Made by a program: the position numbers and the translations under genes. This document shows positions 28,242 through 55,655 of a DNA stretch of 64,000 bases, piece after piece (position 1 is the stretch's first letter; each line of letters begins with the position of its first letter). Source of the stretch: Flavobacterium sp. YJ01 (lineage in GTDB: Bacteria; Bacteroidota; Bacteroidia; Flavobacteriales; Flavobacteriaceae); contig NZ_CP119757.1 of assembly GCF_029320955.1 (NCBI RefSeq), positions 2,046,001 to 2,110,000 of the forward strand, in the 5' to 3' direction. The notes beneath the pieces were generated by a model. The model made no database searches and was not told where the DNA came from. It worked only from the letters and a program-made list of their open reading frames with translations.

Positions 28242-29522
28242 TTAAAATTGCTCAACCTCTGTAGAATGTTTCATTGCTGTTATGGCTGATTTTCCTAACA
28301 TTACTGTATTTTGAACGGCGTCGAAATAAGAAGTTCCTACAAAAGCTTGATGTTTTACTGCTCTAAATCCATTTTTTTGTAAAGCGAATTCGCGTTCCTG
28401 CAATTCAGAATATCCAGCCATTCCGCGTTCTTTGTACGCTTTAGACAATTCGAACATACTTGTATTCAAAGCGTGGAATCCTGCCAAAGTAATGAATTGG
28501 AAACTATATCCCATTGCTGCTAAATCTTCTCTAAATGTTTCCATTTCGTCAATTGATAATTTTGCTGCCCAATTGAAAGACGGAGAACAATTATAAGCCA
28601 GCATTTTATCTGGAAATTCTTTTTTCATTGCTTTTGCAAACTTTCTTGCATAATCTAAATCTGGATTACTGGTTTCCATCCAAATTAAATCAGCATAAGG
28701 TGCATAGCTTAAACCCCTTGCAATTCCCTGATCAATTCCGTTTTTTACATAGAAGAAACCTTCGGCAGTTTTTTCTCCAGTTAAAAACTTTCTATCTCTT
28801 GGATCCGCATCGCTTGTTAGTAAATTAGCTGCATCGGCATCTGTTCGAGCAACTATTAAAGTTGAAACGCCCATAACATCTGAAGCCAGACGTGCCGCAA
28901 TTAATTTATTAATCGCCTCTTGCGTTGGAACTAAAACCTTCCCGCCTAAGTGCCCGCATTTTTTAGCAGAACTTAATTGATCTTCAAAATGAACTCCAGA
29001 AGCTCCTGCTTCAATCATAGATTTCATCAATTCGAAAGCATTTAAGTTCCCGCCAAAACCTGCTTCAGCGTCAGCTACAATCGGAACTAAATAATCTTTT
29101 TTATCTCCAATATTATTTACAATCTGAATCTGATCGGCACGCAATAAAGCGTTGTTGATCTTTTTTACCACCATCGGAACGCTGTTTACTGGGTAAAGCG
29201 ATTGGTCAGGATACATTTCTCCGGCCAGATTTGCATCAGCAGCAACCTGCCATCCGCTTAAATATATCGCTTCTAAACCTGCATCAACTTCCTGAATCGC
29301 CTGATTTCCAGTCAACGCTCCCAAACCCGCAACATAATCCTGACTTTTTAACTTTCTCCATAATTTCTCAGCTCCCATTTTTGCAATAGAATGCTCAATT
29401 TTATAAGAACCCTGAAGCGTTACTACTTCGCTCGCAGTATAAGGACGCTCAACTCCTTTCCATCTCGGGTTCGTAATCCAATCATTAACCAATTCCTGAA
29501 TTCTGTCTTCTGTTGTTTTCAT
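28242..29522 (-). CDS. aceA: Isocitrate lyase
   Basis: Splits isocitrate into glyoxylate and succinate, the first reaction of the glyoxylate shunt. 426 residues, the usual bacterial length. The active-site signature KKCGHLGGK has the catalytic Cys189. ADAEAGFGG supplies Mg ligands, and the C-terminal region has NCSPSFNW. It lies downstream of aceB on the same strand, separated by 237 bases that hold an inverted repeat, so it may have its own promoter or be expressed by read-through. Confidence 0.96.
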
Positions 29523-29603: not shown

Positions 29604-29751
29604 AAACACATAGAAACATAGTTAATCCTTGTGGCTAAAGGCGTTTCACTTGTTTCAATACATCTCGAAGCCTCGGGACTATGTGTGAAAAACTAGTTTT
29701 TTTCTTTTTCCTTTTTAAAGAAAAAATTAAAATCTATGTTTCTATGTGTTT
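29604..29751. repeat. Inverted repeat in the aceB-aceA spacer
   Basis: AAACACATAGAAACATAG (29604-29621) is repeated as its exact complement at 29734-29751. The interior is A/T-rich with a GCCTCGGGAC segment. A CAGTT-rich stretch (29552-29586) precedes it. It separates two genes of one pathway. Confidence 0.75.
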
Positions 29752-29759
29752 CAAATAAA

Positions 29760-31361
29760 TTATAAATATTTATAGCACGGAATCGTCAAGAAATCCACAA
29801 AGTGCAGGTTTACTACTAATCTTTCCAGCATTTTTTCGGCTAGTGGAAATTGTTGTTTTTCATAATTTTTCTCTCCTATTTCTTCCTTGATTTTTCTGAA
29901 TTCATCTAAAGCCAATTTGTGATAATAAGCCAAATCTAATTTTCGTCCATTATCCAAAATCACTTTATTTTGAAGCCATTGCCATAATTGCGATCTCGAA
30001 ATTTCGGCCGTTGCGGCATCTTCCATCAAATTGTGCAATGCGGCGGCACCTTGCCCGTTCAGCCATGAAGCCAAATACAATACTCCAACATTTATATTTT
30101 TTCGAACGCCATTTTCAGTAATGATTCCAATTGGTGGTTCAATCAAATCGGCTTCTGTAATTTTTCGATGTTCTCTTTTAATGTGAATCTGATTTGGAGT
30201 TGGCATTCCTTTATCAAAAATTTCTTTTGCAATTGCAACTAAATCCGGATGCGCTACCCAAGTTCCGTCGTGACCATTTCTAACTTCACGTTCTTTATCC
30301 GTTTTTACTTTTGCGAAAGCAATTGCATTTGCTTCTTCGTTATTTCGGATTGGAATTTGAGCTGCCATTCCGCCAATCGCATGAATGCCTCTTTTATGAC
30401 ATCTTTGGATTACCAAATTTGAATAGGCATTCATAAAAGGCGAAGTCATAGTTACCTGATCACGATCAGGAACAATGAATTTTGGATTTTTTCTAAACTT
30501 TTTGATGTAAGAGAAAATATAATCCCAACGCCCGCAGTTCAAGCCAACGATATGTTCTTTCAATTCGTAAATAATTTCGTCCAACTGAAAACTTGCCGTT
30601 ATAGTTTCAATTAAAACCGTTACTTTAATGGTTCCTCGTTTTAGATTTAGATAATCTTCTGTAAAATCAATTACATTATTCCACCAACGCGCTTCCAGAT
30701 AATGTTCTAATTTCGGAATGTAGAAATACGGTCCAGAATTGTTTTCTAAAAGTCGTTTATGATTATGAAAAACATACAACCCAAAATCTATCAAAGAACC
30801 CGAAACTTCATTTCCTTCAATTAGAACATGTTTTTCCGGCAGATGCAAACCTCTCGGACGTACAATTAACGTTGCTATTTTTTCATTTAAATGATACGAT
30901 TTCTGTTTAACCAAATCAGTAAACGTGATCGTTTTGTTTACCGCATCAATCAAATTTACCTGTCCGTCCATCAAGTTTTGCCAGGTTGGTGAAGTGCTGT
31001 CTTCAAAATCGGCCATAAAAGTCTTGGCACCAGAATTCAAAGCATTGATGATCATTTTACGATCAACGGGTCCAGTAATTTCCACTCTTCTGTCCAATAA
31101 ATCTTTCGGAATTTCACAAGCTGTCCAATTTCCTTCTCTGATGTTTTTAGTTTCAGGAATAAAAACCGGCATGATACCTTGATCAAAAGTGACTTGTTTT
31201 TGTTCTCTCTGTAAAAGCAATAGTTTTCGCTGTGATTCGAATTTTCTATGCAATTCAGTTATAAAAACAATCGCTTCTTCTGTCCAGATTTTTGGATAAC
31301 GAAGCTTCTTTTCGGCTAAAAATTCCATTGCCGTTTCGGTAATTTCTAATTGGTTTTTCAT
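29760..31361 (-). CDS. aceB: Malate synthase A
   Basis: Condenses glyoxylate with acetyl-CoA to malate, completing the glyoxylate shunt. 533 residues when started at the ATG at 31361 (KNQLEITETAMEFLAEKK), which equals the family length. Upstream in-frame ATGs at 31382 and 31421 would add 7 or 20 residues rich in Lys and Leu and not family-like. Recognised stretches are MADFEDSTSPTWQNL, GLNCGRWDYIFSYIKKF (signature), QIPIRNNEEAN and RNGHDGTWVAHP. Divergent from the RamB-like regulator at 31559. Confidence 0.95.
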   Translation of the reverse strand: MKNQLEITETAMEFLAEKKLRYPKIWTEEAIVFITELHRKFESQRKLLLLQREQKQVTFDQGIMPVFIPETKNIREGNWTACEIPKDLLDRRVEITGPVDRKMIINALNSGAKTFMADFEDSTSPTWQNLMDGQVNLIDAVNKTITFTDLVKQKSYHLNEKIATLIVRPRGLHLPEKHVLIEGNEVSGSLIDFGLYVFHNHKRLLENNSGPYFYIPKLEHYLEARWWNNVIDFTEDYLNLKRGTIKVTVLIETITASFQLDEIIYELKEHIVGLNCGRWDYIFSYIKKFRKNPKFIVPDRDQVTMTSPFMNAYSNLVIQRCHKRGIHAIGGMAAQIPIRNNEEANAIAFAKVKTDKEREVRNGHDGTWVAHPDLVAIAKEIFDKGMPTPNQIHIKREHRKITEADLIEPPIGIITENGVRKNINVGVLYLASWLNGQGAAALHNLMEDAATAEISRSQLWQWLQNKVILDNGRKLDLAYYHKLALDEFRKIKEEIGEKNYEKQQFPLAEKMLERLVVNLHFVDFLTIPCYKYL

Positions 31362-31490
31362 AGCTGTGGTTTTTAATTTCATTAGCAGCAATTGAATCGA
31401 TTTTATGTTTTTCAAAAACACAAATACATAACAAACTGATAATTAATATTTTCTACACCACAATATTAGAAAAAAGTTTTTTACAAAACA

Positions 31491-31504
31491 AGCGAACGTT
31501 CGCT
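31491..31504. promoter_or_regulatory. Perfect palindrome between aceB and its putative regulator
   Basis: AGCGAACGTTCGCT is a perfect 14-bp palindrome in an otherwise A/T-rich divergent spacer. It lies 20 bases before the regulator's -33 element (43 before its -7 element) and 130 bases before the aceB start. Candidate operator for the adjacent regulator. Confidence 0.65.
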
Positions 31505-31523
31505 AAAAATGAAAAATAATTTT

Positions 31524-31554
31524 TTGGCGATTATTTTTAGAATACCTATATTTG
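31524..31554 (+). promoter_or_regulatory. Promoter of the RamB-like regulator
   Basis: TTG at 31524-31526, a 20-base spacer, and TATATTTG at 31547-31554. The ATG follows only 4 bases later, so the transcript should start at or next to the ATG (leaderless). Confidence 0.75.
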
Positions 31555-31558
31555 GTTC

Positions 31559-33040
31559 ATGGATATCGAAAAAGACTATATAAAGCTGATCTTCGGATTA
31601 AAATTGAAGCAAGTCAGAACGCAAAAAAATCTGTCTCTTTTTGGCTTGGCCAAACTGACCAATCTTTCAAAATCGTATTTAAACGAGATTGAAAAGGGAA
31701 AAAAATATCCCAAAACAGATAAAATTCTGCTTCTTTGTGAACATTTGGACGTGACTTACGACCAAATGGTGTCTTTAAAACTTGACAATAACCTCGCGCC
31801 GATTGGCGAAATCTTGAAATCTGGGATTTTAAAAGAAATTCCGCTAGAGCTTTTCGGAATTCAGGAAGCCGATTTAATTGATATTATTGCTAATGCTCCT
31901 GCAAAAGTCAATGCTTTTATTAGTACGATTATCGAAATTGCACAGCATTATAATTTAAGCCGCGAAAGTTTCTTTTTGGCCGCTTTGCGTTCATATCAGG
32001 AAGCGCATAGCAATTATTTTGAAGATTTAGAAGAAAAAGTAATTGCATTTTCAAAGTCGTTTCAAATCAACCTGGATTCTAAAATCAGTATTGAAGAACT
32101 GGAAGCAATTTTAAAAGAAGAATACGAATACAACATTAAAGAAATTGCTTTTACAGATCAAGAAGCTTTGGGTGATCTTCGTTCGATTTATGTTCCTAAA
32201 AGCAAAACTTTATTACTTTCTACCGAACTTGACGCTCCGCAAAAAGCTTTTATTTTAGCTAAAGAAATAGCTTATAATTATCTAAAAATTTCCGATCGCT
32301 TATTGACTTTCAGTTGGATTAAGTTTGAAAATTTTGATCAGGTTTTGCACAACTTTTATGCTTCTTATTTTGCTGGTGCTTTATTATTGCCGAGAAAATT
32401 AGTGGTGGATAAAATCAATTTTTTTTTAGAAAATGAAAATCCGAAACCGGAAGAATTTGTTCAATTAATTGAAAGTTTTGAAGTTTCGCCTGAATCTTTT
32501 TATCAGCGATTGACCAATTTATTGCCAAAAGATTTTCAGCTAAAAAACCTCTTTTTCTTAAGATTATCTCACCGAATTGGTTCTGATGTTTACCAAATTA
32601 ATAAAGAATTACATATTACGCATCAACAGGAACCGCACGCCAACGAAACCAACGAACATTATTGCCGAAGATGGGTTTCGGTAAAAACGATTGATGAAGC
32701 CATCAAACAAAATAAATCTCATTTTTTTGATGCTCAAATTTCAAGTTATGCGAATAGCGGAAACGAATATTTAGTTTTTTCATCGGCCACAAAAGATCCT
32801 TTTTTACATGATACCATCCGAAGTATTTCGGTTGGAATTTTAATCAATCCGACAATGAAAAAGAAGTTCAAATTTATTGAAGGAAAACCTTTAGTAAAAA
32901 GAATTGTCGGCGTAACTTGCGAAACTTGCGCTGTTCAGGATTGTTTAGAAAGAGCTGCTCCGCCAATTGTTTTAGAAAGAAAGAAACGCCATGAGAATAC
33001 GGATGCTGTTGTTCAGCAATTTATGAATCAATATAGTTAG
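31559..33040 (+). CDS. XRE-family regulator with DUF2083 (RamB/ScfR type)
   Basis: 493 residues. An HTH_3 domain (about 10-65; LKLKQVRTQKNLSLFGLAKL, SKSYLNEIEKGKKYP) is followed by an IrrE-like region near 215-270 that lacks the HExxH zinc motif (LAKEIAYNYL in its place). A C-terminal DUF2083 domain ends in a cysteine motif, GVTCETCAVQDCLERAAPP. Relatives such as RamB in Corynebacterium control acetate and glyoxylate genes, and others sense short-chain acyl-CoAs. Its position divergent from aceB, with a palindrome between, fits that role. The effector is inferred. Confidence 0.88.
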   Translation: MDIEKDYIKLIFGLKLKQVRTQKNLSLFGLAKLTNLSKSYLNEIEKGKKYPKTDKILLLCEHLDVTYDQMVSLKLDNNLAPIGEILKSGILKEIPLELFGIQEADLIDIIANAPAKVNAFISTIIEIAQHYNLSRESFFLAALRSYQEAHSNYFEDLEEKVIAFSKSFQINLDSKISIEELEAILKEEYEYNIKEIAFTDQEALGDLRSIYVPKSKTLLLSTELDAPQKAFILAKEIAYNYLKISDRLLTFSWIKFENFDQVLHNFYASYFAGALLLPRKLVVDKINFFLENENPKPEEFVQLIESFEVSPESFYQRLTNLLPKDFQLKNLFFLRLSHRIGSDVYQINKELHITHQQEPHANETNEHYCRRWVSVKTIDEAIKQNKSHFFDAQISSYANSGNEYLVFSSATKDPFLHDTIRSISVGILINPTMKKKFKFIEGKPLVKRIVGVTCETCAVQDCLERAAPPIVLERKKRHENTDAVVQQFMNQYS

Positions 33041-33046
33041 AGTGCC

Positions 33047-33406
33047 ATGAAATATTTTGCCTTACTTTTTACTTTGCTTACTATTAACTTCAGTCAGAAA
33101 ACGGACAAACTTACTGGCCGTTATAATTATTTGATTGAAGATGAAGGCACTTATATACAGAAAGATAAAATTACTTTCAAGGACAGCATTTTTGCATTTG
33201 ACAACAAATACCTGCCAAAAGGAAAAGTTTCTTATGGAAATATAATACTGTTAGATAATTTTATCAATACTGATTTGATTATAAGCATTCCGAAAGATCA
33301 AATTACAAAAGATACAATTCCTTTTTTTATGCATGATAAGAAAAGTTCTGCTGCGAATTATCTTGATGAAGTTGTTGGGAAAGGGAAATTGATTAGGATT
33401 AAATAA
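33047..33406 (+). CDS. Small exported protein of unknown function
   Basis: 119 residues with a short hydrophobic N-terminus (KYFALLFTLLTINFS) that looks like a signal peptide. The mature part is beta-rich (GRYNYLIEDEGTYIQKDKITF). No known domain recognised. It starts 6 bases after the regulator, so it is probably co-transcribed with it. Confidence 0.6.
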   Translation: MKYFALLFTLLTINFSQKTDKLTGRYNYLIEDEGTYIQKDKITFKDSIFAFDNKYLPKGKVSYGNIILLDNFINTDLIISIPKDQITKDTIPFFMHDKKSSAANYLDEVVGKGKLIRIK

Positions 33407-33436: not shown

Positions 33437-33532
33437 TTTGTCATTCCGAGGAACGAGGAATCTCCCCCACAGTATGTCGCCAATCTTTGTCGAGCCACTT
33501 GGGGGAGATTCCTCGTTCCTCGGAATGACAAA
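33437..33532. repeat. Long hairpin repeat, GAGGAACGAG arm type
   Basis: Perfect 32-bp arms (33437-33468, 33501-33532; core TTCCGAGGAACGAGGAATCT). The design matches the hairpin at 25683-25784 but with different arm sequence, changed on both sides. The tail GGTTACTTTGAGGTAAAA follows. Confidence 0.85.
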
Positions 33533-35522: not shown

Positions 35523-35594
35523 GGCTTCGACTTCGCTCAGCCTGACAATCGTACTCTTAAGATATCGTATGTCAGGCTGAGCGAAGTCGTAGCC
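35523..35594. repeat. Hairpin repeat, GACTTCGCTCAGCCTGAC arm type
   Basis: 24-base arms (35523-35546, 35571-35594) with one mismatch. It fills the spacer between convergent yceI and the AraC-family gene. A related arm occurs at 62975-63000. Confidence 0.85.
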
Positions 35595-54707: not shown

Positions 54708-55655
54708 ATGAACAAAATAATTCTTTTTCTTACGGTTTTGTTTTTGAGTGTTTTAAATGCTCAAACCAAAAAAGAAATCACTTTTAAGGAAAGTCCGGCG
54801 ATACTTAAAATCAACAACGACCAAATTTACGGCACGTTGACTACGCCAGATTTAACTGCGAAATTTCCTGTTGCTTTAATTATTGCTGGATCTGGACCAA
54901 CAGACAGAGACGGAAATAATCCGATGATGAAAAACAATTCGTTGAAAATGCTCGCAGAAGCATTAGCAAAAAACGGAATTGCATCATTACGATATGATAA
55001 AAGAGCCATTGGAGAAAGTAAAGCAGCTGGAGGCTCTGAGAGCAGTTTGGTTTTTGAAAATTATATTCAAGACGCAAAAAGCTGGATAAACTATTTAAAA
55101 CAAGACAAACGTTTTTCTAAAATTATTATAATTGGTCATAGCGAAGGTTCGTTAATCGGAATGGTTGCAAGTGCAAAAGCCGACAAATTTGTTTCGATTG
55201 CAGGCGCTGGAGAACCAGCAGATAAGATTATAAAAACGCAGATTGCTGCAAAAAAAATGAAACAATTGGACGACATGACTTTTCCGATTATTGATAGTCT
55301 AAAAAACGGATTTGAAGTAAAAAAAGTAGATCCAATGCTGAATGCGCTTTTCAGACCAAGCGTACAACCTTATTTAATTTCTTGGTTCAAATACAATCCG
55401 CAGACAGAAATTAGTAAATTGACAATTCCAGTTTTAATTTTACAAGGAAATAATGATTTGCAGATTGCTGTTAAAGACGCTGAAAATTTATCTAAAGCCA
55501 ATAAAAGTGCTGAAATGGCAATTATTGACAAAATGAATCATATGATGAAAATCATTGACGGCGATCAAAATGCAAATATGGCAAGTTATAATAATGAAAC
55601 ACTTCCGCTTTCGGAAACACTCGTAGAGAAAATAGTTTCATTTATAAAGAAATAA
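54708..55655 (+). CDS. Exported alpha/beta hydrolase
   Basis: 315 residues with a signal peptide (about 1-18, ending LNAQ). An alpha/beta hydrolase fold: IIAGSGPTDRDGNNP (oxyanion region), nucleophile elbow IIGHSEGSLIGM with Ser145, PVLILQGNNDLQI with the acid, and the His in MIDKMNHMMKII-like DKMNHMMK. Esterase or dienelactone-hydrolase-like activity expected; substrate unknown. It forms an operon with sppA. Confidence 0.85.
   Translation: MNKIILFLTVLFLSVLNAQTKKEITFKESPAILKINNDQIYGTLTTPDLTAKFPVALIIAGSGPTDRDGNNPMMKNNSLKMLAEALAKNGIASLRYDKRAIGESKAAGGSESSLVFENYIQDAKSWINYLKQDKRFSKIIIIGHSEGSLIGMVASAKADKFVSIAGAGEPADKIIKTQIAAKKMKQLDDMTFPIIDSLKNGFEVKKVDPMLNALFRPSVQPYLISWFKYNPQTEISKLTIPVLILQGNNDLQIAVKDAENLSKANKSAEMAIIDKMNHMMKIIDGDQNANMASYNNETLPLSETLVEKIVSFIKK

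Follow-up and report, generated by a model that had tools for sequence, protein, structure and literature searches.

A conserved palindrome between aceB and a divergent regulator gene, likely bound by a switch that governs growth on two-carbon compounds

Which protein reads the palindrome that lies between the malate synthase gene aceB and a divergently transcribed regulator gene in Flavobacterium sp. YJ01, and which of the two genes does it serve? The window analysed here, a stretch of 64,000 nucleotides (contig NZ_CP119757.1, positions 2,046,001 to 2,110,000), contains a 197-bp spacer between the ATG of aceB (31361, minus strand) and that of a 493-aa regulator (31559, plus strand), and an exact position check placed AGCGAACGTTCGCT at 31491–31504 within it. 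An earlier sequence-only reading had described an exact 14-bp palindrome at this place, and this was borne out: two inverted half-sites, AGCGAA-CG-TTCGCT, form a perfect palindrome without strand, flanked by an unpaired A on either side so that the symmetry ends at 14 bp. By our own arithmetic a 14-bp palindrome is expected by chance anywhere in a spacer of this length with a probability of about 1%, and the real evidence for the element is its conservation rather than this estimate. The palindrome likely serves to dock a switch that controls growth on two-carbon compounds, and we judge it probable that its best overall explanation is as the operator of the adjacent regulator, which is of the ScfR/IsaR (RamB/PrpR) type. 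No second copy was found in the window at one mismatch, and the only two-mismatch copy is AGCGAAGGTTCGTT at 55140–55153 (a shuffled window gave a mean of 0.11 matches with at most two mismatches). In the whole genome (5,483,844 bases) the palindrome is unique at up to one mismatch, and allowing two adds two more sites; a wider regulon in this genome was rejected, as no second site with at most one mismatch exists.

Within Flavobacterium, a protein search returned long matches to the regulator in 115 of 299 genomes (best E 1e-190 or better); matches at E ≤ 0.001 were found in 160, those beyond the 115 counted orthologues being short helix-turn-helix (HTH) matches or fragments. aceB was found in exactly the same 115 genomes, and the other 184 have neither gene. 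The pattern AGCGAACGTWCGC matched 113 genomes, of which 112 belong to the regulator- and aceB-bearing set, and the remaining three of that set (G147, G019 and G231) carry a one-mismatch site before aceB. The one match outside it (G259), near a contig end in a genome with neither regulator nor aceB, was taken as chance because a reversed control pattern also matches some genomes. Among 80 named Flavobacterium loci, the best of 540 confirmed matches, 71 have the exact site and nine have AGCGAACGTACGCT, all within 300 bp of the regulator; the nearest named locus among the matches listed is that of Flavobacterium sp. LPB0248, whose regulator is 99% identical.

The same pairing extends beyond the genus. 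In 349 Flavobacteriaceae genomes spanning 237 genera, the regulator was found at E ≤ 1e-20 in 52 genomes (43 genera) and the exact 14-mer in 49 (42 genera), in a single copy each and always 53–63 bp from the aligned regulator start. About one chance copy would be expected over these genomes (assuming 35% G+C and 3.3 Mb per genome), and no match of the reversed control pattern was seen in them. The regulator genomes without the exact site are G336, G558 and G311, the last of which has a regulator fragment. When 159 of the family genomes were searched for aceB, it was found in 22, all of them among the 52; G311 has no aceB, and G336 is not among the 22 aceB matches listed. Two fragments (G422, G311) were not read as loci and two of the 52 genomes (G000, G063) are Flavobacterium, and 46 loci with the exact site were retained for half-site scoring out of 48 read. 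Altogether 173 family loci were scored (L002–L004 and the named loci L158–L237 were left out), and all 155 with linked aceB, comprising 109 from Flavobacterium (window included) and 46 from other genera, carry the site with at most one mismatch; this count excludes nine aceB-only loci, eight regulator-only loci and L120. In the class Bacteroidia, the regulator was found in 44 of 237 genomes, namely four Flavobacterium and 40 genomes from 18 other families. All 40 of the latter loci were read (L302 and L303 repeat L279 and L274 and were not counted), and the 34 with an adjacent divergent aceB, from 14 families, all have AGCGAA-NN-TTCGCT, 31 exactly and three after a single mismatch is allowed among the outer twelve bases. 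Relatives that share the gene order thus keep the palindrome, which is paired exclusively with this regulator and aceB. The condition set for refuting the sequence-only reading, loss of the palindrome from such relatives, did not hold, and that reading is supported; in placing the circuit in Flavobacterium it was too narrow, since the site recurs across families of the class.

Separated operons indicate for which gene the site is kept. Six genomes of Flavobacterium (G271, G220, G131, G147, G231 and G019) have aceB away from an intact regulator, in a second operon type, aceB2-aceA2, whose isocitrate lyase (538- to 541-aa) is 28–30% identical to that of the window; four more (G036, G047, G113 and G142) have both operon types. 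All ten aceB2 promoters (L114, L115, L116 and L118–L124) have a one-mismatch site, each 37 bp from the -7 box, with no trace of a regulator alongside save a degraded relic in G019. The six regulators that lost their linked aceB (L065, L086, L087, L094, L098 and L117) have best sites with 1, 2, 2, 2, 3 and 2 mismatches, at an unusual distance in five of the six. Because the aceB2 promoters keep the site without a neighbouring regulator while the sites of the separated regulators drift, the site appears to be kept for aceB and read by a trans-acting factor. Autoregulation as the main selected function was rejected on the same comparison, one to three mismatches against one-mismatch aceB2 sites at constant spacing. 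Of the two roles proposed earlier for the site, it thus seems conserved chiefly for control of aceB, with autoregulation weighted down to a secondary part. The relic beside aceB2 in G019 (L120, 5027–5397) suggests that the second operon once had a divergent regulator of its own. In L145 and L157 (genomes G558 and G336, two species of one genus) the regulator is intact and aceB is absent from the fetched flanks; the best site, AACGAACGTTCGCA, sits inside the core promoter of the regulator itself, which suggests self-repression at these loci. By eye, these two regulators adjoin open reading frames (ORFs) resembling MBL-fold lipoproteins and an arginase-like protein.

The genes on the aceB side of the spacer were assigned by family score: aceB (29760–31361, minus strand) encodes malate synthase A (TIGR01344, 773 bits) and aceA (28242–29522, downstream on the same strand) isocitrate lyase (NF011645, 737 bits), both exceeding the NCBIfam cut-offs. 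That the two form an operon is supported by their close spacing in relatives, 22–100 bp in 47 of 72, and by the 240-bp gap of the window, which contains neither a half-site nor a -7 box (TAnnTTTG, aceA strand); the earlier observation that no copy of the palindrome precedes aceA therefore stands. A separate aceA site was rejected, as none was found in the 71 scorable of 72 aceB-aceA spacers (best match five mismatches). The aceB-aceA spacer of the window also contains an 18-bp inverted repeat (29604–29751, arms 29604–29621 and 29734–29751).

The regulator (31559–33040, plus strand) has an N-terminal XRE-type HTH domain (HTH_3, 41.7 bits against a cut-off of 23), followed by an IrrE-like/GAF core which, by fold comparison of a structure model, has the PrpR fold and has lost the HEXXH motif. 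Cysteine 369 in the GAF-like part is kept in all 141 regulator sequences covering the position, and a C-X2-C-X4-C motif near the C-terminus (C454, C457 and C462) in all 140 covering it, in an alignment of 143 rows of which two are empty (L109, L151) and one (L125) is truncated. The designation RamB-like holds in the sense of the ScfR/IsaR family, to which fold, cysteines and domain order point, and not in that of the actinobacterial RamB equivalog, where the protein scores 61.8 bits against a cut-off of 700 (NF038139). PrpR was not among the matches listed in sequence searches of the PDB, whereas the fold comparison did find it. Directly 3' of the regulator lies a 119-aa ORF (33047–33406) without a Pfam or NCBIfam match at E ≤ 0.001.

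Operator and protein may also vary together. The central dinucleotide is CG in linked Flavobacteriaceae loci (the AGCGAACGTACGCT of some Flavobacterium is a change outside the centre) and AT, TT, TA or AA outside the family, except for CG in L262. Residue 38 of the regulator is lysine in 142 of 142 Flavobacteriaceae rows (window counted twice) and in none of 38 other-family rows; L262, from outside the family yet CG-centred, also has Lys38, and was left out of this scoring, for which 36 other-family sites were used. The co-variation is only an idea, as it possibly reflects one event on the tree. Further TTCGC half-sites toward the regulator were found in 42 of the 46 exact-site loci of other Flavobacteriaceae genera, 33 of them as TTCGCWAA, starting 17–18 or 34–36 bp beyond the palindrome's own TTCGC (for flanks that had been shuffled the mean was 0.48 of 46 loci); in nine of the ten aceB2 promoters one follows after 35 bp. 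In the other families half-sites recur at steps of 17 and 34–35, with an extra GCGAA 17–18 bp away on the aceB side in 14 of the 36 sites. Binding boxes of the ScfR/IsaR family are of the type TTTGC(A/G)AA. The palindrome half in main-group Flavobacterium is TTCGCTAA, and TTCGCAAA, read on the opposite strand, gives TTTGCgAA, which forms the imperfect half of the recognition sequence proposed for PrpR (PMC6765138).

In Flavobacteriaceae the predicted promoters lie at largely conserved distances from this operator. For aceB, a -7 box TAATATTG is predicted at 31461–31468 (minus strand; start near 31456) and a -33 TTG at 31489–31491 (minus strand), overlapping the palindrome by one base; of the 166 loci whose palindrome has no more than one mismatch, 150 have CA before it. 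On the regulator side (plus strand), sequence reading predicts a -33 element TTTTTTG at 31520–31526 and a -7 box TATATTTG at 31547–31554. The sigma-A -7 box of F. psychrophilum is placed at -12 to -5 (PMC9723704), which would put the regulator +1 on the A of its ATG at 31559, and the predicted leader is 0–2 nt in 129 of 158 loci with a scorable box. From the centre of the operator to the last base of the aceB CAAWnnTA box (TAnnWTTG on the aceB strand) there are 36–37 bp in 148 of 155 linked Flavobacteriaceae loci, and to the regulator TAnnTTTG box 57–59 bp in 138 of 155. Taken with the sigma-A box position, this spacing would centre the operator at about -41.5 of the predicted aceB promoter and at -61.5 to -63.5 of the predicted regulator promoter, positions familiar from activators such as CRP.

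That the regulator binds the palindrome at all we regard as highly probable. Its mode of action is less certain; as the most likely we somewhat favour an activator that responds to acyl-CoA and may also have a repressing state, on the promoter geometry and by analogy with RamB of Paracoccus denitrificans, which binds boxes ahead of its malate synthase gene ms, activates on acetate and seems to repress on succinate (PMC10370305). In such a mechanism the HTH domains of a regulator dimer would bind the two inverted TTCGCT half-sites, and the C-terminal part would hold a [4Fe-4S] cluster and a CoA-thioester pocket reporting short-chain acyl-CoA, with acetyl-, propionyl- or succinyl-CoA as candidate ligands. 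At high acyl-CoA the regulator, sitting at about -41.5 against the aceB -33 box, would recruit RNA polymerase to aceB-aceA; otherwise it probably holds the aceB promoter down, as Paracoccus RamB seems to, and the palindrome at about -61.5 of the divergent promoter would provide secondary control of the regulator gene.

Several points weigh against this mechanism. We infer that the protein binds, where transcription starts, the cluster, the ligand and that the effect is activation and not repression alone; the start sites follow from -7 boxes matched by a loose pattern, which was settled on once the sequences had been inspected. The exact -41.5 phasing is not universal, since candidate aceB boxes in the other families lie mostly 30–37 bp from the centre (a second candidate lies at 45 in three loci, and a few have none). 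The leaderless regulator promoter of the sequence-only reading stands as a prediction from the boxes and short leaders, against a share of only 5.5% leaderless mRNAs given in PMC9723704. Further half-sites occur in none of 96 main-group Flavobacterium loci, window included, whereas Paracoccus RamB needs two boxes. The regulator scores 22.5 bits against the Pfam ScfRs gathering cut-off of 24 (PF09856), and some relatives 77–78% identical to it bear a precomputed PF09856 assignment; its model is of low confidence at residues 78–133, 355–369 and 455–469, around the cysteine loops. The six other-family loci without adjacent aceB have two exact sites, one one-mismatch site and three times none, and because the loci share ancestry, the counts do not stand for independent cases.

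An operator abutting the -33 box would equally fit a repressor, and the rival that survives best is a pure repressor acting on the same operator, blocking the aceB -33 at low acyl-CoA, releasing on ligand and repressing its own gene. The one-base overlap with the -33 TTG and the L145/L157 site between the regulator's own -33 and -7 speak for it, as does the description of M. tuberculosis RamB as more likely a repressor (PMC6765138). However, the near-constant spacing to the aceB -7 box exceeds the need of steric blocking, and PrpR and Paracoccus RamB are both described as activators; we therefore hold pure repression to be possible and rather unlikely. A different transcription factor encoded elsewhere, such as one of the TetR type, might instead read the palindrome while the neighbouring regulator uses another site: even-spaced perfect palindromes with GAACGTTC cores generally fit other factor families, and within the genus the regulator and aceB share genomes, so that site presence cannot tell them apart. 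This is improbable, as the exact site has no copy in the 349 family genomes other than next to this regulator, is kept (exactly or with one or two mismatches) at some regulators without adjacent aceB (L279, L289, L290, L145 and L157), has half-sites similar to the PrpR box, and is accompanied across families by a conserved recognition helix along with the conserved outer half-site. Least credible is that the divergent genes merely share a promoter element or a structural feature of the DNA to which no dedicated regulator binds, for although the conserved block abuts the predicted -33 box, it is retained at the ten aceB2 promoters without a divergent regulator, is absent elsewhere in the 349 genomes, unlike a general promoter element, and is symmetrically and exactly conserved across families despite its changing centre.

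Farther from the locus, the window has a perfect 33-bp inverted repeat at 33437–33532 (arms 33437–33469 and 33500–33532), whose first 30 bases recur nowhere else in the window and which resembles an intergenic repeat element, and a 20-bp inverted repeat between two genes at 35528–35589 (arms 35528–35547 and 35570–35589).

Operator control by the adjacent regulator allows a broader, tentative proposal: that a [4Fe-4S], acyl-CoA-gated activator of aceB-aceA, working near -41.5 on promoters of the unusual kind found in this phylum, is an old dedicated switch of the glyoxylate shunt in much of Bacteroidia, whose operator code evolved with the protein, a constant AGCGAA half being combined with a clade-specific centre, CG with Lys38 and A/T with Val, Asn, Ile or Gln at that residue. 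A light-responsive glyoxylate shunt has been reported for Dokdonia MED134 (PMC9040609), and in proteorhodopsin-bearing flavobacteria such as this one the regulator could link redox or acyl-CoA state to the shunt. If confirmed, operator control by the adjacent regulator would give that shunt a candidate regulator, add Bacteroidota, with an operator layout of a new kind, to the range of Fe-S acyl-CoA regulators, and provide Flavobacterium genetics with a genome-unique promoter switch. One operator and one regulator predict shunt control in many genera, down to testable single bases, and the genomes in which regulator and aceB have parted act as a natural experiment, from which the site is seen to serve aceB. 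The titles and abstracts listed in searches of an open-licence library, where subscription papers are mostly missing, gave no description of this regulator or site in Bacteroidota, a phylum with, to our knowledge, few known local regulators of central carbon metabolism.

Among known systems, IclR of E. coli is a dedicated local regulator of the aceBA operon, with a protein family and operator unrelated to those described here. RamB of Corynebacterium glutamicum targets acetate and glyoxylate genes and acts on many genes, in contrast to the genome-unique site found here; similarity to it (NF038139) covers residues 13–321 of the regulator, far under the equivalog cut-off. M. tuberculosis PrpR (6CZ6 and related entries) shares the fold over model residues 137–465, the arrangement of the cysteines (C363, C447, C450 and C455 in PrpR, C369, C454, C457 and C462 here) and the missing IrrE-type HEXXH motif, and differs in its target, the methylcitrate cycle, in an identity of about 18% in the structural alignment, and in its proposed operator, TTTGCAAA-N-TTTGCgAA as opposed to AGCGAA-NN-TTCGCT (PMC6765138). 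The class 2 RamB of Paracoccus, as presented in PMC10370305, binds CoA esters of the ethylmalonyl-CoA pathway and uses two near-identical boxes 18 bp apart, both of which are needed, unlike the single palindrome of inverted half-sites found here; no second TTCGC was found in the 66 bases read on the regulator side, nor a second near-copy in the window's spacer. Common to both, with the Paracoccus side taken from the same source, are membership of the ScfR family, control of the glyoxylate cycle and a [4Fe-4S] cluster (both predicted here), a regulator gene divergent from ms(aceB)-icl, and a site ahead of ms.
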